A DNA stretch of 64,000 bases from the NCBI RefSeq assembly GCF_024496245.1, contig NZ_CP101740.1:744001-808000 (forward strand). The letters are read 5' to 3'. Below, in pieces: positions 24,387 through 35,921 of this stretch. How positions within the stretch are numbered: the stretch's first letter is position 1; the number at the start of each line of letters is the position of its first letter. The position numbers and the translations under genes were made by a program. The notes below the pieces were generated by a model that did not search any database, had not been told where the DNA came from, and worked only from the letters and a program-made list of their open reading frames with translations. Origin of the DNA: Sphingomonas qomolangmaensis. GTDB lineage: Bacteria; Pseudomonadota; Alphaproteobacteria; Sphingomonadales; Sphingomonadaceae.

Positions 24387-27191
24387 ATGATGATGAAACG
24401 GCAGCTGCTCACCGCCTGTGCGGTCCCCGCGCTCGTCCTGGCATTCGCCAATCCGGCCGTCGCGCAGGACGCCGGGGCGACCGCGACCGAGGCTGGCTCG
24501 ACCACGCAGGACGAGGATCCTTCGCAGGATACTAGCCGCGACATCGTCATCACCGCACAAGGCCGCGCGCAGGCGCTCGCCGACGTGCCGATCGCGGTTT
24601 CTGCGGTAACCTCCGAAAGCCTATTGCTGTCGGGCGCCAATGACATTCGCCAGCTCAACCAACTCGCGCCGTCGTTGCTGGTGTCCTCGACCGGGTCCGA
24701 AGCCAATGGTTCGGCGCGTATCCGCGGCATCGGCACCGTCGGCGACAATCCGGGCCTCGAAAGCTCGGTCGTCACCTTCATCGACGGCGTCTACCGCTCG
24801 CGCTCGGGCATCGGCCTCAACGAGCTCGGCGAGATCGACCGGATCGAGGTGCTGCGCGGACCGCAGGGAACGCTAGGCGGGCGCAACTCGTCGGCGGGCC
24901 TCATCAGCATCGTCAGCAAACGCCCCGAGTTCGAATTCGGCGGCAATGCCGAGGTGACCTATGGCAATTATGATTTCTGGCGGCTTGCCGGCAGCCTGAC
25001 CGGTCCGATCACCCAGACGCTCGCCGCCCGGGTCGATGGCGTGTTCGTCAAGCGCGACGGTTTCTATAACGATCCGGCGAACGGCACGACGATCAACGAT
25101 CGCGATCGCTACTTCGTTCGCGGCCAGTTGCTGTTCCAGCCTACCTCGGACATCGATTTCCGGCTCATCGGCGATTACAGCAAGCGCGACGAAAATTGCT
25201 GCGCCGCGACCTATGTCGACAGCTCGGTCAATCCGTTCATCGGCAACCTCAACAATCCCGCCACCCCGATCACCACCGGGCTGCCGCGCGGTAACAACAT
25301 CATCAACGTGCTGACCGCGCTCGGCCAGAACCCCGCAGCGTTCAACCAGGGCTATAGCCGCGACGTATCGGTGACGCCGGGTCGCGATTATGGCAGCGCA
25401 TCGGAAGACTGGGGCGTGTCGGGCCAGCTCGACTGGCGCTTCGGCGACGTCTCGCTGACCTCGATCACCGCCTATCGCACCTATTATAATTCGCAAGGGT
25501 CGGACGTCGACTACGGCACCCCCGATTTGCTTTACAACGCCAGCGGCGACGGCAATTCGCGGCTGTTCAAGACCTTCACGCAGGAGCTGCGGCTGCAGGG
25601 CAGCCTGTTCGACGACAAGCTCGACTGGCTGGTCGGCGGCTTCTTCCTCGACGAAAAGATCCGGGTGAACAGCAACCTGCGCTTCGGTCGGCAATATGGT
25701 CAGTTCGCTGCTTGCCGGATCATCACCGGTGGCGCGCTTGCGGCACTATATTCGCCGACCAGCCCCGGCTGCGTCGCCCCCGGCATCGGCCCGGCGACGC
25801 TCACCGCCGCAGGCAGCCGCGACATCGCCGCGGGCTTTGCGCGGCTGAGCACGCTCAGCGACCTCGGTTCGGCGGGCGAAACCTATCGCCAGGACACGCG
25901 CAGCTTCGCCGCGTTTACCCACAACATCGTCCACCTCACCGACACGCTCGATCTGACGTTGGGGCTTCGCTACACCGACGAGCGCAAGCGCTTCTCGGCG
26001 TCGTTCAACAACGACAATACCGTCTGCACCTTCCTACAATCGACGGTGTCGGACGAAGCTTTCGGCCCGACCTCGACCGCCACGCAGCGCGCGCTTGGCC
26101 AGGCGCTGCTCGGGCTTGGCTGCCAGGGCAACTCGACCGCCGAGTTGAACGGCGTCAGCGTCGAAGACGAGCGCAACGAAAGCGAATTCACCGGCACCGC
26201 GGTATTGTCGTGGAAGGCCACCGACGATCTGCTGCTGTATGGCAGCTTCACGCGCGGCTATAAGGCGGGCGGTTTCAACCTCGATCGATCGGCACTCAAA
26301 CTTCCGGTGCAAACCTTCGCCTCGCTGGGCGGCGTGCAGGCGCTTACCGGCAACCTTCAGTTCGACCCCGAGACGGTGAACGCCTTCGAGGTCGGCGCGA
26401 AATATTCGACCGGTCCGTTCAGCCTTTCGGTCGCGGGCTTCCGCCAGGAGTTCAAAAACTTCCAGCTCAACACCTTCGACGGTACCGTCTTCATCGTTCA
26501 GAACGTCAACGGCTGCACCGAAGAGCTGAACGGTGCCGATCGCGACCAGAGCAAGTTCACCGCCGCTGCCAATTACAGCGCCACCGCCGCGGCGACCGGC
26601 GCGTGCGACACCGACAATCTGGGCTATGGGGTGCTCGCACAGGGCGTCGAGCTCGAGGCGCAACTCGCGCCGATCCGCGATCTGCGTATCGCGGTGGGGC
26701 TGACCTATGCCGACACCAAGTTCCGTGACAACCTGGTCGGCAATGATCGCGGCCAGCCGCTCAACCAAGCGCTGCGCAAGCTGCCCGGCGACAATCTGTC
26801 GAACGCGCCCGAGATCGTCGCGACTTCGTCGGTCGCCTGGACCCCCGACATCGGCAGCAGCGGGCTGTCGGGTCTGTTCTATATCGATGGCCGCCTCTCG
26901 GACGATTACAACACCGGGTCGGACCTGTTCCCGCAAAAGGAACAGGACAGCTTCTTCCTGATCAACGCGCGCGTCGGCATTCGCGGGCCCGACCAGCGCT
27001 GGGCGGTCGAGCTCTGGGCGCAGAACCTGCTCGACAAGGATTATGCACAGGTCGCCTTCAACTCGCCGTTCCAGGAAGGCGCGGCCAACGCCGCGTTCCA
27101 GGATCCGCAATATCCCGGCGGGCGGCAGATCTTTTCGCAGTTCCTCGCCGAACCGCGGACCTATGGCGTGACGCTTCGCGGCAGCTTTTGA
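24387..27191 (+). CDS. TonB-dependent receptor
   Basis: A 934-residue outer-membrane active-transport barrel. The Sec signal (MMMKRQLLTACAVPALVLAF, cleavage likely after AVA at residue 26) is followed by a TonB-box-like DIVITAQGRAQ. The plug has RIRGIG, VVTFIDGVYRSR and EVLRGPQGTLGGRNSSAG. A long beta-barrel ends in an aromatic terminal residue (LRGSF). The start has an AGGAGATG site. A Spinster-like MFS permease follows 87 bases on, so the pair may import the same small molecule across both membranes. Substrate not recognisable. Confidence 0.93.
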   Translation: MMMKRQLLTACAVPALVLAFANPAVAQDAGATATEAGSTTQDEDPSQDTSRDIVITAQGRAQALADVPIAVSAVTSESLLLSGANDIRQLNQLAPSLLVSSTGSEANGSARIRGIGTVGDNPGLESSVVTFIDGVYRSRSGIGLNELGEIDRIEVLRGPQGTLGGRNSSAGLISIVSKRPEFEFGGNAEVTYGNYDFWRLAGSLTGPITQTLAARVDGVFVKRDGFYNDPANGTTINDRDRYFVRGQLLFQPTSDIDFRLIGDYSKRDENCCAATYVDSSVNPFIGNLNNPATPITTGLPRGNNIINVLTALGQNPAAFNQGYSRDVSVTPGRDYGSASEDWGVSGQLDWRFGDVSLTSITAYRTYYNSQGSDVDYGTPDLLYNASGDGNSRLFKTFTQELRLQGSLFDDKLDWLVGGFFLDEKIRVNSNLRFGRQYGQFAACRIITGGALAALYSPTSPGCVAPGIGPATLTAAGSRDIAAGFARLSTLSDLGSAGETYRQDTRSFAAFTHNIVHLTDTLDLTLGLRYTDERKRFSASFNNDNTVCTFLQSTVSDEAFGPTSTATQRALGQALLGLGCQGNSTAELNGVSVEDERNESEFTGTAVLSWKATDDLLLYGSFTRGYKAGGFNLDRSALKLPVQTFASLGGVQALTGNLQFDPETVNAFEVGAKYSTGPFSLSVAGFRQEFKNFQLNTFDGTVFIVQNVNGCTEELNGADRDQSKFTAAANYSATAAATGACDTDNLGYGVLAQGVELEAQLAPIRDLRIAVGLTYADTKFRDNLVGNDRGQPLNQALRKLPGDNLSNAPEIVATSSVAWTPDIGSSGLSGLFYIDGRLSDDYNTGSDLFPQKEQDSFFLINARVGIRGPDQRWAVELWAQNLLDKDYAQVAFNSPFQEGAANAAFQDPQYPGGRQIFSQFLAEPRTYGVTLRGSF

Positions 27192-27278
27192 GCCCGCGTG
27201 ACACCGGCGGTTCGGGGGAGCCGCCGGTGTCGAACCTCAGGGGGCAATCAAGCAGGGTGCGAGCAACAAGGACGACGC

Positions 27279-28580
27279 GTGACCGAACCCCAGACGCTGG
27301 CCGCGCATGCGATTGCCGATGAAAAGGCGATCCGCCGCCGCGGGCTGACGCTCGCGCTGCTCACCACCACCTATTTCTTCAGCTACATGGATCGCCAGAT
27401 CCTCGCGATCCTGCAGGAGCTGATCAAGGCCGACCTGCAGCTAAGCGATACCCAGCTCGGCCTGTTGTCCGGCTTGGCGTTCGCCTTGTTCTACGCGACG
27501 CTCGGCATCCCAGTCGCGCGGCTGGCCGATCGGTTCAACCGCAAGAACATCGTCGCGCTGAGCCTTGCCGCATGGAGCGCGATGACCGCGGTCGGCGGGC
27601 TCGCGCAGAACTTTACCCAGTTGCTGCTCGCGCGGATCGGGGTGGGGATCGGCGAGGCGGGATCATCGCCGCCGAGCCATTCGATCATCGCCGATCTGTA
27701 TCCGCCCGATCGCCGGGCGGGGGCGATGGGGGTGTTTTCGCTTGGCGTCGTGCTCGGCAGTGCGATCGGCACGTCGGTGGGCGGGCTGGTCGCCGCGGCG
27801 TTCGGCTGGCGCACCGCGATGTACGTCATCGGCATGCCCGGCGTGGTGCTCGCGCTGATCGTCTGGCTGTTCGTCGTCGAGCCGCGTCGCGGCCTGTCCG
27901 ATCCCAACCGTGCGCCCGACGCTGCCAAGGAGCCGATGCCAAGCCTCGCACAAGGGTTCGCGTCGCTCGCCGCGTCGGGGCCGGCGCTGCACCTGGTGGC
28001 CGGCGTCACGCTGACCTCGATGATCGGCTATGGTCTTACCGCCTGGGGGCCAAGCTATATGCAGCGCTCGCTGGGGATCGGGGTGCGCGACATTTCGCTC
28101 TATGTCGCGCTGCCGGGAGGGCTGTTCGGCATCGCCTCGGCGGTGGGCGGCGGCAAGATCGCCGACTGGCTCGCGCGGCGGCATGGGCTGCACGCGCAGA
28201 GCACGATGGTCGCGGTGCTCAAGACGCTCGCGCTGCCCTTCACCTTGGGCTTCTTCCTGTTCGACCAGCCGGTGCTCGCGATCGGGTCCTATTTTCTCTA
28301 TATCCTGTTCGCCAACAGCTATCTCGGGCCGACCTTCGCGCTGATCCAGGGGCTGGCGCCGCTGCGGCTGCGCGCCTTGTGGGCGGCGATCACCTTGCTG
28401 GTGATCAACCTGATCGGATTGGGTGCCGGGCCGACGCTGGTGGGGGTGATCAGCGATCTGTTGAAGCCGAGCTTCGGCGAGGATTCGCTGCGCTGGTCGA
28501 TGATGTTGTTCGCCGCGGTGACGCCCTGGGCGATCTTCCATTATTGGCGCGCGGGGGTGTTGTTGAAGCGCGCGGGCTAA
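27279..28580 (+). CDS. MFS transporter, Spinster-like
   Basis: A 433-residue inner-membrane permease with about 12 membrane segments. The first carries YFFSYMDRQILAILQELIKA and the loop 2-3 motif is ARLADRFNRKN; GIGEAGSSPPSHSIIADLYP is typical of the Spinster-like group found in sphingomonads and Caulobacter. The start is a GTG at 27279 with AAGGACGAC upstream; the open frame reaches back to 27198 but without a good site. Probably cotranscribed with the TonB receptor upstream. Substrate unknown. Confidence 0.9.
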   Translation: MTEPQTLAAHAIADEKAIRRRGLTLALLTTTYFFSYMDRQILAILQELIKADLQLSDTQLGLLSGLAFALFYATLGIPVARLADRFNRKNIVALSLAAWSAMTAVGGLAQNFTQLLLARIGVGIGEAGSSPPSHSIIADLYPPDRRAGAMGVFSLGVVLGSAIGTSVGGLVAAAFGWRTAMYVIGMPGVVLALIVWLFVVEPRRGLSDPNRAPDAAKEPMPSLAQGFASLAASGPALHLVAGVTLTSMIGYGLTAWGPSYMQRSLGIGVRDISLYVALPGGLFGIASAVGGGKIADWLARRHGLHAQSTMVAVLKTLALPFTLGFFLFDQPVLAIGSYFLYILFANSYLGPTFALIQGLAPLRLRALWAAITLLVINLIGLGAGPTLVGVISDLLKPSFGEDSLRWSMMLFAAVTPWAIFHYWRAGVLLKRAG

Positions 28581-30485: not shown

Positions 30486-30995
30486 CTATTTTGCCGGCAT
30501 CTTCGCCGCGGTCGCTTCTATCTCGACCAGGAAATTGGGGCCGGCCAGCCCCGCCACCTGCACCGTCGATCGCGCGACGGTATTGGGGTTTTCGGCCGTT
30601 CCGAAGAACTGCTTGAACCCTTCGTTCATCCCCGCAAAGTCCATCTTGCCGTCGGTGCGCGCCGGGTCGGCGGTGACGAACACCGTCAGCTTGATGACGT
30701 CGGACATCGCATAGCCCTTCGACGCCAGGATTGCCTTGATCTTGTTGAGGATGCTGATGGTCTGTGTCTTGGTGTCGCCGAACGATTCCCAGCTCGTCGG
30801 CGGTTGCGACGGGTCGATCGCTGCGGGCAGTTGCCCCGACAAGACCAGCGTCTCGGCGCCCGGCGGCACCGTCACCGCCTGGAGGATCAGCGAGGGTGTC
30901 GTCCCCGGATTTTGGTGCCGCACCACCTGGGCCCCGGCGGGAGCGGCGAGCGCCCCCGCCAGTAGCAGTCCCGCCGCAATCGTTCGAAGTGTCAT
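30486..30995 (-). CDS. Exported RidA-family imine deaminase
   Basis: A 169-residue RidA/YjgF/UK114 protein with a clear Sec signal (TLRTIAAGLLLAGALAAPAG, cleaved after AGA near residue 22), so it should act in the periplasm, unlike ordinary cytosolic RidA. The catalytic Arg is kept (VARSTVQVAGL, Arg142), as is VEIEA near residue 160. RidA hydrolyses 2-aminoacrylate and other imines. Start 30995 follows GGGGAGAAGAGGGAC. It lies 32 bases after a TonB receptor in one operon with an amine oxidase and a GNAT enzyme, which makes imine hydrolysis a coherent role. Confidence 0.88.
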   Translation of the reverse strand: MTLRTIAAGLLLAGALAAPAGAQVVRHQNPGTTPSLILQAVTVPPGAETLVLSGQLPAAIDPSQPPTSWESFGDTKTQTISILNKIKAILASKGYAMSDVIKLTVFVTADPARTDGKMDFAGMNEGFKQFFGTAENPNTVARSTVQVAGLAGPNFLVEIEATAAKMPAK

Positions 30996-31027
30996 GTCCC
31001 TCTTCTCCCCGCTAATCGTGTTCGTCA

Positions 31028-33685
31028 TCAGAATTTGGTCGCTGCGCGAAAATACCAGAAGCCGCCGTTGAAGCCATAAGGCGCATCGTCGGGATAGACC
31101 GAACCGCTCACCGTTCCCCCGGTCGCGGCATACCAATTCTGGTTGGCCTGGCCGGTCGCGCGGAAGTTCTTGTCGGGATAATTGTCGAAGATGTTCTCGC
31201 CGCCCACCGCCAGCCGGATCTGGTCGTTGAGTTCGAACCCGACTTCGAGATCGAAGGTGACGTCGTCGCCGAAGGTCTTGTTACCACCGTCGGCGGTTGC
31301 GGCGTAGCTGGTGAACTTGCCCCAGTAACTGGCGCGCGCGGTGACGCTCAGCCGGTCGAGCGACCAGTTTTCGGTGAGGTTGCCGCGCCATTTCGAGTTG
31401 AGATTCTCGATATTGCCCACGCGTACAGCGTCGATCACCGCGGTCTGGGTGCCGAGCAAATTGACCGTGTCGATCCCGGTCACCTCGGTGTCATTGTAGT
31501 TGACCGCCAGGATCGTGTTGAACCGCCCGAAATCGGTCGAAGCGGTGTGGTTCGCCACCAGATCGACGCCTTGTGTGCGGGTATCGAACGAGTTGGTGAA
31601 GTAGCGCAGCCGCCCCAGCGTCTCGGCATTCTGCACCCCGGCGTCGCGCAGGGCCTGGCGCCGCGCCGCGGTGTCGATCTCGATATTGCCGGTCAGGCCG
31701 ATGCGGTCGGTCACCTCGATCTGATAGGCATCGAGCGTGATCGAGAACGACGCGGTGGGAGTGATGACGATCCCCGCCGAATAGTTCTTCGACTTTTCGG
31801 GCCGCAGCGAGGTCGCCCCGAACACCTGCGCAGCGGCGGTCGTCACCGGCAGGATCGCGCTTTCGATCGGGTTTGCGCCGGTGAAGGCGGTTGCGACGTT
31901 GGTGGTGAACAACTGTCCCGGCGTCGGTGCGCGGAAGCCCGTGCTGGCGGCGCCGCGGACCGCGAAGGCGGGGGTGAATTCGTACCGCCCCGTCGCCTTC
32001 CAGTTGGTGGTCGATCCGAAATCGCTGAACTCCTCGTGCCGGATCGCCCCCGACAGCGACAGGCCGGCGACGATGTCGGCCTCGACTTCGGCGTAGAAGG
32101 CGTAGCTCGTGCGATCCTGGTCGATCGTCGAATCGGGGCCATAGCCGGGGAAGCCGTTCGACCCCACTTGCTGCGCGGTGTTGACGAAGCGGGTGCCGTC
32201 CGCGCGCTGGACCGTCTGCAACCCGAAATTGCCGAACGCATAGGATGCCGGATCGCCGAGCAGGATCGCATAGGCTTCGCGGCGATGCTCGGCGCCCGCC
32301 GCGATCGTCAGCGGCGAGGCGAGGCCGATATCGGTCTCATAAGCGAAATCGGCGTTGAAGTTGGTTTCGCGTTGCTGGAGCGATCCCATGTAGAAGGCGG
32401 TCGGGGAGGTCGGCCCCATCGACGGATTGAGCGTGTTGGTCATCCGATAGTCGATCTGGTTCTGACCATAGGATGCGCTGACGTCGTAGCTCAGCCCCGT
32501 CAGCACCTCGCCTTTCAACCCGCCGACGATCGAATAGTCGGTCACCTTGCCGAAGAAGCGCGGGGCGAACCCCAGCGGGTACAGGCTGTTGAAGTTGAAG
32601 GTCCGCCCGGTGGCGCTGTACACCGGCCGCCCGCGCGCATCGAACTGCCCTGGGATCGCATCGGTGAACAACGTCGTGAAGATGCCCCCCGCCGCGCCGA
32701 AGGTCTGGTTGCCGGTGCCCGCGGCATTGCGACCGGTCGAGCTCACCGGCTGGCGATAGTTGAAGTCGCCCTCCTGTCGCGAAACGCCGTAATTGCCGAA
32801 GGCGTAGACTTCGGTGCCTTCGGCGACTTCGAGGCCGGCATTGACGAACAGCCGGGCAGCCTCGACCTGCGGATCGCCGAACAGCTGCACCGGGTCACGG
32901 AGTCCGTCATAGGTGCCGGGAAATTGCGCCTGCAACGCCACCACGCCGGGGCGCTGCACCCCGCGGCTGGTCTGCTTCGAATCGATATATTCGCCGCTGA
33001 CGTTGAAGAAGCCCGCATCGGTGAGCGGCAGCCCGACATTCGCCGCGATCTGGACGTTCTCGCCATCGCCTTCATAGAATTGGCCATAGCGGGCGGTGAG
33101 TTCGATCCCCTCGCGGTTCCGCTTGAGGCCGTAGTTGATGACGCCAGCGATCGCGTCCGAGCCATATTGCGCCGCCGCGCCGTCGCGCAGCACTTCGATC
33201 CGCTCGACCGCGATCGTCGGGATCTGTGCGAGGTCGACGCCCTGCGAACCCGCCGCCAGCGCGCCGCCGCCGATCTGCACCAGCGCCGCGCGATGGCGGC
33301 GCTTGCCGTTGACCAGGACCAGGATCTGGTCGGGTGGCAGGCCGCGCAGCGTCGGCGGTCGAACGAAGGTCGATCCGTCGGAAATCGCGAACCGGCCGAC
33401 GTTGAACGAGGGCACCAGGTTGCGCAGGATGTTGTTCATGTCGCCCGACGCTTGGGTCTGCAGCGTCTCGGCGGTGAAGACATCGACCGGCGCGGCCGAT
33501 TCGAGCACGGTGCGGTCGGTGCGCCGCGTGCCGGTGACGATGATCTCCCCCTGCGCATTCGCCGCGGCGGGTGGATCGACCACCGAGCTTTCCTCGACCG
33601 GCGGCGTTTGTGCTTGTCCATGCGCCACCCCGGCGCAGAGCGACGTCGCGAGTGCGACGATCGAAATCGACGATATGCTCTTCAT
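31028..33685 (-). CDS. TonB-dependent receptor of the amine oxidase operon
   Basis: An 885-residue outer-membrane receptor. Signal peptide MKSISSISIVALATSLCAGV ends near AHGQ; a TonB-box-like GEIIVTGTRR follows; the plug has PTLRGLPPDQILVLVNGKRR, RIEVLRDGAAAQYGSDAIAG; the barrel ends with FRAATKF. I use the ATG at 33685 with GGGGGGCTTTGGGA before it; a TTG two codons earlier is the alternative. It lies between the GNAT gene (68-base gap) and the exported RidA gene (32-base gap), which suggests it brings in the operon's substrate. Substrate unknown. Confidence 0.93.
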   Translation of the reverse strand: MKSISSISIVALATSLCAGVAHGQAQTPPVEESSVVDPPAAANAQGEIIVTGTRRTDRTVLESAAPVDVFTAETLQTQASGDMNNILRNLVPSFNVGRFAISDGSTFVRPPTLRGLPPDQILVLVNGKRRHRAALVQIGGGALAAGSQGVDLAQIPTIAVERIEVLRDGAAAQYGSDAIAGVINYGLKRNREGIELTARYGQFYEGDGENVQIAANVGLPLTDAGFFNVSGEYIDSKQTSRGVQRPGVVALQAQFPGTYDGLRDPVQLFGDPQVEAARLFVNAGLEVAEGTEVYAFGNYGVSRQEGDFNYRQPVSSTGRNAAGTGNQTFGAAGGIFTTLFTDAIPGQFDARGRPVYSATGRTFNFNSLYPLGFAPRFFGKVTDYSIVGGLKGEVLTGLSYDVSASYGQNQIDYRMTNTLNPSMGPTSPTAFYMGSLQQRETNFNADFAYETDIGLASPLTIAAGAEHRREAYAILLGDPASYAFGNFGLQTVQRADGTRFVNTAQQVGSNGFPGYGPDSTIDQDRTSYAFYAEVEADIVAGLSLSGAIRHEEFSDFGSTTNWKATGRYEFTPAFAVRGAASTGFRAPTPGQLFTTNVATAFTGANPIESAILPVTTAAAQVFGATSLRPEKSKNYSAGIVITPTASFSITLDAYQIEVTDRIGLTGNIEIDTAARRQALRDAGVQNAETLGRLRYFTNSFDTRTQGVDLVANHTASTDFGRFNTILAVNYNDTEVTGIDTVNLLGTQTAVIDAVRVGNIENLNSKWRGNLTENWSLDRLSVTARASYWGKFTSYAATADGGNKTFGDDVTFDLEVGFELNDQIRLAVGGENIFDNYPDKNFRATGQANQNWYAATGGTVSGSVYPDDAPYGFNGGFWYFRAATKF

Positions 33686-33753
33686 TCCCAAAGCCCCCCA
33701 AAGATATCCCGGCTTGCGCCTTCGCAGGGCCTCTCCGCCTTTTCTGTTCTCGG

Positions 33754-34320
33754 TTACGCCGACAGATGCTTGTGCATGGGTACGAACACGACGGTGGCGT
33801 CACCCACCGTCACAAGGGTTTCGGGCGCGGCGACGAAGCCGCGCTCGCGATAGAAATCGACTCCCGACAGCGTCGCCATCAGCTCGACCGCGGTGAAGCC
33901 GGCGGCGCGCGCCGCCTCCTCGCCGGCGCGCAGGATCGCGCTGCCGACGCCGCGGCGGGCGAAGGCAGCGGCTACGAACATCGCGCGGATCTTTGCGCGG
34001 CTGGTTGCCGGATCGAGCAGATCGTCGGCGCGCCCGATGAAGCGGTCGCTGCCGAACAGCTTGCCGCGCCGGCTCCAGCCGCCGCAGCCCGCCATCGCGC
34101 CATCGATCTCGGCGACGAAATAGGTGCCATCGGTCACCAGCACGCTGTCGACCCCGAACACCCCGTCGATCGCCGCCGCCAGCGCGCGGTGGTCATAATA
34201 GCCGCTGCCGAGCGTGCGCGCCGATGCCTCGATCAGTGTCGCCATCGCGGGCACGTCGGCGGGAGTCGCTTGCCTGATGCTGATCGCGTCGGACGGGCGC
34301 GACAAACTGGCGGTCGTCAC
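33754..34320 (-). CDS. GNAT family N-acetyltransferase
   Basis: A 188-residue acetyl-CoA-dependent acyltransferase. The N-terminal block SIRQATPADVPAMATLIEAS, TYFVAEIDGAMAGCGGW, and the acetyl-CoA pyrophosphate loop RAMFVAAAFARRGVGSAIL with AARAAGFTAVELMATLSGV are clear; it ends VDFYRERGF. The GTG at 34320 overlaps the stop of the amine oxidase gene as GTGA, so the two are translationally coupled. The longer frame to 34602 is a shadow of that gene. It may acetylate an amine linked to the oxidase, but this is inference. Confidence 0.88.
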   Translation of the reverse strand: MTTASLSRPSDAISIRQATPADVPAMATLIEASARTLGSGYYDHRALAAAIDGVFGVDSVLVTDGTYFVAEIDGAMAGCGGWSRRGKLFGSDRFIGRADDLLDPATSRAKIRAMFVAAAFARRGVGSAILRAGEEAARAAGFTAVELMATLSGVDFYRERGFVAAPETLVTVGDATVVFVPMHKHLSA

Positions 34321-35921
34321 GCTGCGATGCGCGTCGGCTGGGTCACCGCGTCGGCGCGCTGCAGGTTCGCCAGATCGGCGACCGCGCCGTGCGCCGACTG
34401 GATCGCGCCCTCCTGCCACCCCGGCGTCTGGCTGAGCGCGGCGCCGGCGAAGATCACGCGGCCCGCGGGCTGGTTGAGCAGGCGGTACGGATCGGTATCG
34501 ATCGTCCCCTCCTGCCGCCCGGCCATGCCGGCATACCAATTGGGCCAGGGTCCCAGGCTGTAGGGGATCTTGTTCCAATTGACCGCGACGCCGTTGGCGC
34601 ATTCGCCGCCGTGCCCCGGATGCAGCTTCTCGACCACCGCGCGCGCACGCTCGACCTGTTCGGCGATCGGCAGCTGGGCGAAGCGCGCCGCGCGTTCGCC
34701 CGAGGAATAGCAGGCGAGCAGCATCCCGCGCGGGCTGAACAGCCCGGCGCTGGGATACCAGACCAGCGAGGTATCGCCGCCGACGAAGCTGATCCCGCCG
34801 AAGATCTGGTCCTTTTCCCAGAAGCGCGGCGCGTCGAACGCCACCTTGTTCGAATGATCATAGACGACGTTCTTGATTGCCTGCGCGACCGGTGGGGCGA
34901 AGTCGCAATCGACCTTCGCCAGCACGGGGAAGGGGATGGTGCAGACCATGTAATCGGCCGAGAGCGAGCGCATCGCGCCGGTGCGCGTGTCCTTGAACGC
35001 CACCTCGACCTTGCGATCGCCGTTGCGGACGCGCTGGACGTCGGCGTTGAGGATCACCGGGCGCTTGAGGGCGCGCTGGAAGCCCGCGGCGATCCGGTCC
35101 ATCCCGCCGACCGGCTGGAACATCGTCGCCTGCATATAGACATTGTCCTCGAACAGCGTCGCAGGGAGCTGTTCGTTGGCGAGCAGGTCGCGCAGCGGCA
35201 CCGCCTCGGGCGGTGCGGCGAAGGATCGCACCCCGGCATCGGGATAGGTCTTGAACCCCGATCGCAGCGTGCCCTTGAACCCGCCCTTGTCGTCGAGATC
35301 GCCATAGGTCTTGAGGAACGGCAGCAGCGCCGCCTTGTCCTCGGGGGTCAGCGACTGGTCTAGCGCGCCCTGGTTCACCGCCTTGGTGAGCAGTTCGGCG
35401 ATATGCCCGCGGGTGTCGTTGATCGCGACGCGCATCCGCTGCTTCCGCCCGTCGCCGCCCATGATGTAGGCGCCGCGGCTCGAATTGATCTCGACCTCGA
35501 GCGGAACGCCCAATTTGCCGCAATAGCCGAGCAGCCGCTCGTGGAAGCTGGGGATGCGCGCCGGTCCGGCGTTGAAATAGGCGCCTTCGGAGAAGCGAGC
35601 GACCTGGTCGGCCTCGCCGTTCATCACGATGCGGTCGCCGTCGCGGACGGTCCAGCTGCGGCCGCCAACGCGGTTGCGCGCTTCTAGAACATGGACGGTA
35701 TAGCCCGCTTGTTGCAGCTCATACGCGGCGGTCAAGCCGGCGATCCCGGCGCCTAGCACCACGACCGACTTGCCCGATCCGAAGTTCCTGGGCAGCGACG
35801 GCAAGCTTTGGGCGGCGGCGATATTGCCGAACAGTCCCAACGCCTGCATCGCGCTCGCCGCGGCTGCAGTACCGCCTACATTCCCGATATGCTGTAACAG
35901 GCTACGACGTGAAATGCTCAA
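34317..35921 (-). CDS. Tat-exported flavin monoamine oxidase family protein
   Basis: A 534-residue FAD amine oxidase. The N terminus has a twin-arginine motif (SRRSLLQ, Arg5-Arg6) and an Ala/Gly segment ending AAAQ, indicating Tat export. The dinucleotide fold is VVVLGAGIAGLTAAYEL (about residues 53-69) with Glu80 and RVGGRSW; the C-terminal FAD motif is GRVIFAGAALSQTPGWQEGA. L-amino acid, tryptophan and polyamine oxidases share this fold. The start is TTG at 35921 with GGGGGG 6 bases upstream; an ATG five bases earlier is out of frame and stops after two codons. First gene of the operon. Confidence 0.9.
   Translation of the reverse strand: MSISRRSLLQHIGNVGGTAAAASAMQALGLFGNIAAAQSLPSLPRNFGSGKSVVVLGAGIAGLTAAYELQQAGYTVHVLEARNRVGGRSWTVRDGDRIVMNGEADQVARFSEGAYFNAGPARIPSFHERLLGYCGKLGVPLEVEINSSRGAYIMGGDGRKQRMRVAINDTRGHIAELLTKAVNQGALDQSLTPEDKAALLPFLKTYGDLDDKGGFKGTLRSGFKTYPDAGVRSFAAPPEAVPLRDLLANEQLPATLFEDNVYMQATMFQPVGGMDRIAAGFQRALKRPVILNADVQRVRNGDRKVEVAFKDTRTGAMRSLSADYMVCTIPFPVLAKVDCDFAPPVAQAIKNVVYDHSNKVAFDAPRFWEKDQIFGGISFVGGDTSLVWYPSAGLFSPRGMLLACYSSGERAARFAQLPIAEQVERARAVVEKLHPGHGGECANGVAVNWNKIPYSLGPWPNWYAGMAGRQEGTIDTDPYRLLNQPAGRVIFAGAALSQTPGWQEGAIQSAHGAVADLANLQRADAVTQPTRIAA

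Follow-up and report, generated by a model that had tools for sequence, protein, structure and literature searches.

Four genes lie close together on the minus strand of a 64,000-nucleotide stretch of Sphingomonas qomolangmaensis DNA (contig NZ_CP101740.1, positions 744,001 to 808,000; hereafter, the window). They encode a flavin oxidase, a GNAT-family acetyltransferase, a TonB-dependent receptor and a Rid protein. The questions raised by this locus are whether these genes form one working unit and, if so, what kind of compound the unit handles. An earlier note, made from the letters alone, proposed an operon that imports an amine, oxidizes it in the periplasm and hydrolyzes the resulting imine. 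In our reading, to which we assign a probability of about 0.6, the operon is a module for L-amino-acid oxidation in the cell envelope, equipped with an imine hydrolase and a receptor of its own. The gene layout, the protein families, the residues typical of L-amino-acid oxidases (LAAOs), the matched export-type signals and the recurrent clustering are all observed in the sequences.

The layout given in the earlier note is borne out by the coordinates of the open reading frames (ORFs). All four genes are confirmed, with 0 internal stops; the GNAT start overlaps the oxidase stop by 4 bases, as GTGA, and gaps of 68 bases (GNAT stop to receptor) and 32 bases (receptor stop to Rid) follow. Judging from this spacing, the four genes are probably cotranscribed. 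A promoter scan detected no sigma-70-like site upstream of the oxidase, and the promoter and terminator scan as a whole was uninformative.

The nearest chain to the oxidase in the PDB is the LAAO of Rhodococcus opacus (2jae; 5.1e-81 by phmmer, about 35% identity), and the first putrescine oxidase appears at 1.8e-12. The AlphaFold model (mean pLDDT 74.3) leads to the same enzyme: the top Foldseek match is 2jae_A (E 1.3e-41, TM 0.76/0.84), ranks 1-13 are LAAOs, L-glutamate and L-lysine oxidases follow, and the first monoamine oxidase is at rank 38. In the alignment with 2jae, R122, Y405 and W502 stand opposite an Arg, a Tyr and a Trp; these three residues and K359 are invariant across 11 homologues. 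R122 and Y405 correspond to the carboxylate-binding Arg and Tyr of the R. opacus enzyme, and W502 to its aromatic residue. Since both the sequence matches and the fold matches are LAAOs, an L-alpha-amino acid is more likely to be the substrate than a simple amine. The amine substrate proposed earlier has to be corrected accordingly; oxidation of a simple amine is not preferred.

The Rid protein has two outstanding matches in the PDB, PFL1385 (6.6e-32) and PSPTO3006 (1.6e-28), and the next chain is at 6.6e-12. Both proteins are assigned to the Rid3 subfamily (PMC5619798), and by these best matches, rather than by a subfamily tree, the window's Rid protein appears closest to Rid3. A conserved catalytic Arg and a conserved Glu are expected in a protein of this kind (PMC4433059). 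In an alignment of 13 sequences, the conserved arginine that had been located at Arg142 is indeed present and is 1 of 21 invariant columns; E160 is nearly invariant and, by its position, would be the Glu named in PMC4433059. In vitro, PFL_1385 and PSPTO_3006 are active on imines produced by snake L-amino-acid oxidase and D-arginine dehydrogenase, and they lower semicarbazone formation from LAAO-made imines (PMC5619798). By analogy with these relatives, the window's Rid protein is expected to be an imine hydrolase.

To see how regularly the oxidase and Rid genes occur together, two genome sets are used, 80 related genomes and 240 genomes of the class, where G000 denotes the window's genome. Among the 80 relatives, with cut-offs of E ≤ 1e-26 for Rid and E ≤ 1e-40 for the oxidase, the two genes fall in the identical 11 genomes, 4 of them outside the window's genus, and are at most 3.4 kb apart. 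Note that the Rid cut-off was chosen post hoc, at a gap above paralogues and weak matches; at the looser E ≤ 0.001, some Rid match is present in 32 of the 80. In the class set, seven of the eight genomes with Rid (E ≤ 1e-20) also have the oxidase (E ≤ 1e-60), again at most 3.4 kb away. G237 is the Rid genome without the oxidase, the Rid match of G230 spans a stop, and four genomes have the oxidase without such a Rid. For the class set, the Fisher p-value, not corrected for relatedness, is 3e-10, or 1e-7 when the window's genus is left out. The oxidase-Rid pairing is thus borne out in both sets. In addition, we consider a set of named loci (given L numbers), which are the best 80 of at least 582 confirmed matches; all of them were found via the oxidase, and they are uninformative on Rid or receptor genes that occur without an oxidase. 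Within 8 kb of the oxidase, 60 of these loci have Rid, 40 have a receptor of the window's family and 36 have both, and the remaining loci comprise 24 with Rid only, 4 with the receptor only and 16 with neither.

The two proteins also carry matching export-type signals. The N terminus of the oxidase is a Tat-type segment, SRRSLLQHIGNVGGTAAAASAMQALGLF, in which R6 is invariant in 11 homologues and R5 is replaced by K in two, and that of the Rid protein is of Sec type; both signals were noted previously. For the comparison we used 70 oxidase-Rid pairs, excluding the window, and scored the signals by motif, hydrophobicity and charge rather than by a dedicated predictor, with a threshold of 1.8 for the Rid segment. 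An RR or KR motif is present in 69 of the 70 pairs; the miss is L067, whose oxidase is cut by the contig start and which was dropped, leaving 69 scorable pairs. The signals agree in 68 of these: 59 pairs have both and 9 have neither. In the 59, the RR or KR of the oxidase is followed by no more than 2 charges, and the Rid segment exceeds 1.8 in 56 and is 1.65-1.66 in 3, which were accepted by eye. In the 9, which form one Pseudomonas clade, the oxidase region is charged and degenerate, and the Rid start has no hydrophobic segment. The single disagreement is L065, where the oxidase region holds 3 charges and the Rid segment scores 1.84. The joint absence of the signals suggests that the oxidase and Rid share a compartment; in the Pseudomonas clade it looks as if the module had moved to the cytoplasm. 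This clade (L105, L106, L108, L109, L110, L114, L118, L119 and L121) has an ABC-transporter ATPase gene upstream, and an SBP_bac_3 gene is present in L105, L114 and L119. As a separate observation, the Rid proteins of L138 (5609-6109) and L080 have lipobox-like signals (LTGC, LAGC) and are possibly membrane-anchored lipoproteins.

Haem is attached to c-type cytochromes outside the cytoplasm. In 5 of 93 loci (L039, L040, L041, L123 and L138, the last two of which entered the set via the receptor), the next gene after that of the oxidase codes for a CXXCH protein with a signal, so that this neighbour is predicted to be periplasmic; four further CXXCH hits are not adjacent or not co-directional. 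Two of these loci, L040 and L041 (genomes G066 and G075), have two tandem Rid genes after the oxidase-cytochrome c pair, and 8 and 7 oxidase matches (E ≤ 1e-40) in their genomes, 5 of the 7 in G075 being in one run (C14:66946-75278).

For the activities, substrate, location, transport and cotranscription, and for the part played by the GNAT protein, we infer the following scheme. The receptor would carry an amino-acid-bearing compound (free, peptide-bound or conjugated) through the outer membrane, and the periplasmic enzyme, containing flavin adenine dinucleotide (FAD), would convert the alpha-amino acid into an alpha-imino acid. The electrons would be passed to O2, giving H2O2, or to the respiratory chain, as the cytochrome c-linked relatives suggest. 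The exported Rid3-type protein would then intercept the imino acid before any reaction with envelope components and hydrolyze it, yielding a 2-oxo acid and ammonium, both of which would be available for uptake. A possible task of the GNAT protein, in the cytoplasm, is N-acetylation of this amino acid or of a related one.

Two other uses of a periplasmic LAAO have to be considered at this point. An auxin-type role, in which L-tryptophan is converted into indole-3-pyruvate for indole-3-acetate (IAA), has been proposed for the lao-cccA-ridA operon of Gluconacetobacter diazotrophicus, described in 2016, which encodes a Tat-signal LAAO, a cytochrome c and RidA and in which two Tn5 lao mutants had no detectable IAA (PMC5053998). 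For the window this role is improbable, as it leaves the receptor unexplained and the relatives occur in other gene contexts. It is very improbable that the LAAO makes H2O2 against competitors, with Rid as self-protection: antimicrobial LAAOs that release H2O2 are known, but the signals here predict a periplasmic, not an extracellular, protein, the cytochrome c-linked relatives suggest respiration, and again the receptor is unexplained.

The receptor has the Plug and barrel domains (Pfam) of TonB-dependent receptors. The second-best match to it in the window's genome is at 6.3e-18, that is, there is no close second copy, and 35 of the 40 receptor-bearing named loci have a receptor on the oxidase strand. 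(The receptor of L044 is different from the window's family and is not among the 40.) A search of 12 named genomes at E ≤ 1e-45 gives the oxidase-linked receptor as the clear best match, or the only one, in five (L052, L064, L072, L093 and L097), among which it is the sole match in two Pseudomonas genomes (L072 and L093); two others (L050 and L098) are ambiguous, because single segments and sums disagree. At E ≤ 1e-120 the receptor is found in five class genomes. It lies in the cluster in G000, G010 and G265 and on a contig other than that of the oxidase-Rid pair in G189, and two such receptors occur in G165, where neither Rid nor a full-length oxidase is close by. Among eight off-locus receptor loci, that of Nitrospirillum (L123) again has Rid, oxidase and cytochrome c, in the arrangement Rid-oxidase-cytochrome c-receptor, and that of Caulobacter (L127) lies amid sulfur-type genes; six are without Rid or oxidase. 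The receptor thus remains part of the module in a weaker form than first proposed (40 of the 80 named loci, G265 and L123), and its cargo would be an amino-acid-bearing compound instead of a simple amine. Matching against the PDB did not indicate a substrate: only vitamin B12, colicin I and siderophore receptors were matched, over the plug region.

Conservation of the four-gene order in relatives had been proposed as a check. The order oxidase-GNAT-receptor-Rid is found in the window, G010, L042, L052 and G017, and all loci with this order belong to one 14-member sphingomonad clade of the oxidase tree (a quick tree); in L043, the receptor is missing from the locus. The composition is found more widely. 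All four families are present in Phenylobacterium L051 and L055, where the GNAT gene lies beyond a divergent receptor, and in G265, which belongs to a different family within the class, the genes for Rid, receptor, oxidase, cytochrome c and GNAT share one strand, the proteins being 44% (Rid), 49% (receptor), 35% (oxidase) and 47% (GNAT) identical to those of the window. The four-family composition recurs; the gene order does not, and the refuting outcome named in the earlier note, a lack of conserved order, is half realized.

GNAT genes at E ≤ 1e-20 are present in 33 of the 80 relatives, of which just G000, G010 and G017 have one next to the oxidase, and in 10 of the 240 class genomes, of which G000, G010 and G265 do; in the named loci, a GNAT gene is near the oxidase in 5 of 80. 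Once the window's own genome is set aside, the oxidase-linked GNATs rank first in each search, and an oxidase-linked subgroup may exist, although the family clearly has other uses. The role in the module that the earlier note gave to this protein is accordingly weak by these counts, yet the GNAT family is among the four that recur in G265, L051 and L055. The model (mean pLDDT 87.2) is that of an ordinary GNAT. No PDB chain matched it by sequence, and the 50 listed Foldseek hits are assorted GNATs with 13-21% identity, from which no substrate is claimed.

Several observations weigh against an envelope module of this composition. The compared genomes are kin, so the co-occurrence p-values are too small, and the joint absence of signals concerns one clade and is probably one event. 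There is no cytochrome c-like gene, in the sense of a signal-bearing CXXCH ORF, within 4 kb of the window's oxidase. Of the 80 named loci, 16 have neither Rid nor receptor nearby (in 6 of them the contig ends within 3 kb), and another 24 carry Rid without the receptor. The oxidase-linked receptor is not the best match in 5 of the 12 genomes (L047, L060, L061, L112 and L114), and receptor identity to the window's is 33% in L045, L047 and L048 versus 50% in L052, where the oxidases of all four are 62-64% identical to the window's. As receptors vary among loci with similar oxidases, the transported compound may differ. The GNAT gene, finally, is mostly located away from the oxidase.

Some of these points would fit another reading, in which only the oxidase-Rid pair is functional and the receptor and the acetyltransferase would be passengers, given the large number of TonB receptor and GNAT genes. 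The loci with Rid and no receptor, the variation of receptor sequences among similar loci, the six off-locus receptors without Rid or oxidase, and the 33 relatives with a GNAT gene, 3 of which have it beside the oxidase, all speak for passengers. The lack of a close second receptor copy in the window's genome, the shared strand in 35 of 40 loci, the sole linked receptors of L072 and L093, and the reunion of all four families in G265 speak against them. On balance we regard the passenger reading as possible but doubtful and retain the module with its own receptor.

The surroundings of the oxidase in other bacteria offer a further clue to its substrate. In 23 of the 80 named loci (20/23 Pseudomonas, plus L044, L060 and L097), genes of three sulfur-type sequence clusters lie at most 8 kb from the oxidase. 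Only representatives of the neighbour clusters were identified, using Pfam and NCBIfam; counted by cluster, luciferase-like monooxygenases of the NtaA/DmoA type occur in 20 loci, the SsuA family in 13 and SfnB-like proteins in 10, and a 2-hydroxyacid dehydrogenase (Pfam, NCBIfam) and an M19 dipeptidase (Pfam) were also identified. Since six Pseudomonas genomes have just 4-10 NtaA/DmoA matches each, chance alone would hardly place one so near the oxidase, even if the kinship of the loci has to be borne in mind. In a Sphingomonas genome (G002:C3:275789-299740), a sulfur-type island of about 25 kb surrounds the oxidase-Rid pair, with 4 SsuA-type matches (2 over the cut-off) and 2 NtaA/DmoA genes. 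M19 membrane-dipeptidase genes lie beside or near the oxidase in 7 of the 80 loci (L044, L070, L072, L085, L096, L114 and L119, which are loci of Pseudomonas and of Sphingomonas oleivorans), a hint that the substrates may be dipeptides.

These neighbours would suit a sulfur-scavenging module, in which a thioether or another sulfur amino acid or dipeptide is oxidized and later attacked by the luciferase-like monooxygenases. However, the window's genome and G010 have 0 NtaA/DmoA matches and 0 SsuA matches over the cut-off, the Pseudomonas loci are related and their counts not independent, and the L044 monooxygenase is just 28% identical over 175 amino acids to the checked representative. As the main explanation here, sulfur scavenging is therefore unlikely, while it fits many relatives; we treat sulfur as one deployment of the module and not as its meaning in the window's genome. 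Tentatively, the amino-acid oxidation module may be specified further: a dedicated receptor would import a rare compound, either an amino-acid conjugate or a dipeptide, and its oxidation in the envelope by a Tat-exported dehydrogenase of LAAO type would feed respiration; a dedicated exported Rid would serve periplasmic imine clearance, and in Pseudomonas and some sphingomonads the same core would also belong to sulfur-scavenging regulons.

The coordinates of the genes and signals are collected in Table 1. The receptor has an alternative start, TTG at 33691, which would give 887 amino acids. On the plus strand of the window, 24387-28580, a second TonB receptor gene is followed by an MFS transporter gene, and the same pair adjoins the operon in G010 and L042.

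Table 1. Positions in the window of the four genes and of the signal and residue features discussed in the text
Feature	Positions	Strand	Details and basis
Flavin L-amino-acid-oxidase-like protein	34317..35921	-	TTG start, 534 amino acids; Pfam Amino_oxidase 3e-50
Tat-type signal region of oxidase, RR = residues 5-6	35811..35921	-	Sequence, homologue comparison
GNAT-family N-acetyltransferase	33754..34320	-	GTG start, 188 amino acids, no signal seen; Pfam Acetyltransf_1 2e-11
TonB-dependent outer-membrane receptor	31028..33685	-	ATG start, 885 amino acids; Pfam Plug 2.9e-21, TonB_dep_Rec_b-barrel 2e-34
Rid protein, nearest Rid3 subfamily, Sec-type signal	30486..30995	-	ATG start, 169 amino acids; Pfam Ribonuc_L-PSP 6.1e-17
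Sec-type signal segment of Rid, probable cleavage after Ala22 (AGA/Q)	30930..30995	-	Sequence; similar in most paired relatives
Arg142 codon of Rid (catalytic-type Arg)	30570..30572	-	Alignment; role of Arg from PMC4433059

Rid proteins have mostly been discussed as cytoplasmic guards. The pairing of an export-signal Rid with an export-signal oxidase, jointly signal-less in one Pseudomonas clade, points to the envelope as a second place where imine damage is dealt with. The pairing also supplies Rid3 proteins with candidate partners in vivo; as of 2015, the substrates of this subfamily in the cell were described as unknown (PMC4433059). Through the receptor, the substrate of the module becomes approachable by uptake assays.

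The statement in the earlier note that no described system has this composition is too strong for the oxidase-Rid core. Clustering of RidA genes, and in some cases of Rid3 genes, with genes for FAD amine oxidases has been reported (Niehaus et al. 2015, PMC4433059); these are the same two families as in the window, and imine hydrolysis is proposed there, whereas the main text does not contain the words "signal" or "periplasm", and its passages on this clustering name no receptor or GNAT. The lao-cccA-ridA operon, with co-occurrence of lao and ridA in 19 other genomes, resembles the window in that a Tat-signal LAAO stands beside a RidA-family gene and periplasmic action is suggested; it differs in its cytochrome c and its link to IAA, the operon as described has no receptor or GNAT, and the passages on it do not say that its RidA is exported (PMC5053998). 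The window has the LAAO-Rid core of this operon type and, within 4 kb, lacks the cytochrome c. Another extracytoplasmic pairing is the periplasmic LAAO of Chlamydomonas with its RidA subunit, which scavenges ammonium but is a stable eukaryotic complex without a receptor (cited in PMC5053998).

Other systems share single components. The best solved relatives of the window's Rid, PFL_1385 and PSPTO_3006 (PDB 9bkc and 9bka), act on LAAO-made imines but are treated as general imine deaminases, in a main text without the words "periplasm" and "signal" (PMC5619798). For the oxidase, the R. opacus LAAO (2jae) is the best match in both sequence and fold, with the conserved Arg and Tyr aligned, but with the limited identity given above. 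A TonB receptor accompanies a RidA-family protein in the catabolic ong cluster for oxidized chitin in Pseudoalteromonas, where the RidA gene is needed for growth and a cytoplasmic D-amino-acid deaminase takes the place of an LAAO (PMC9537276). In the nicotine hybrid-pathway clusters, Rid is proposed to clear the enamine or imine made by a flavin dehydrogenase, and TonB receptor and cytochrome c genes are named, but the Rid is of subfamily Rid6, the enzyme is cytoplasmic and the substrate is another one (PMC7688666). In the open-access literature searched, we found no description of an oxidase-Rid pair with a linked receptor, GNAT or sulfur genes, or with an exported Rid. The oxidase-Rid pairing is thus already in print, and what is new here is its version with a receptor and an acetyltransferase, which recurs in some other bacteria.

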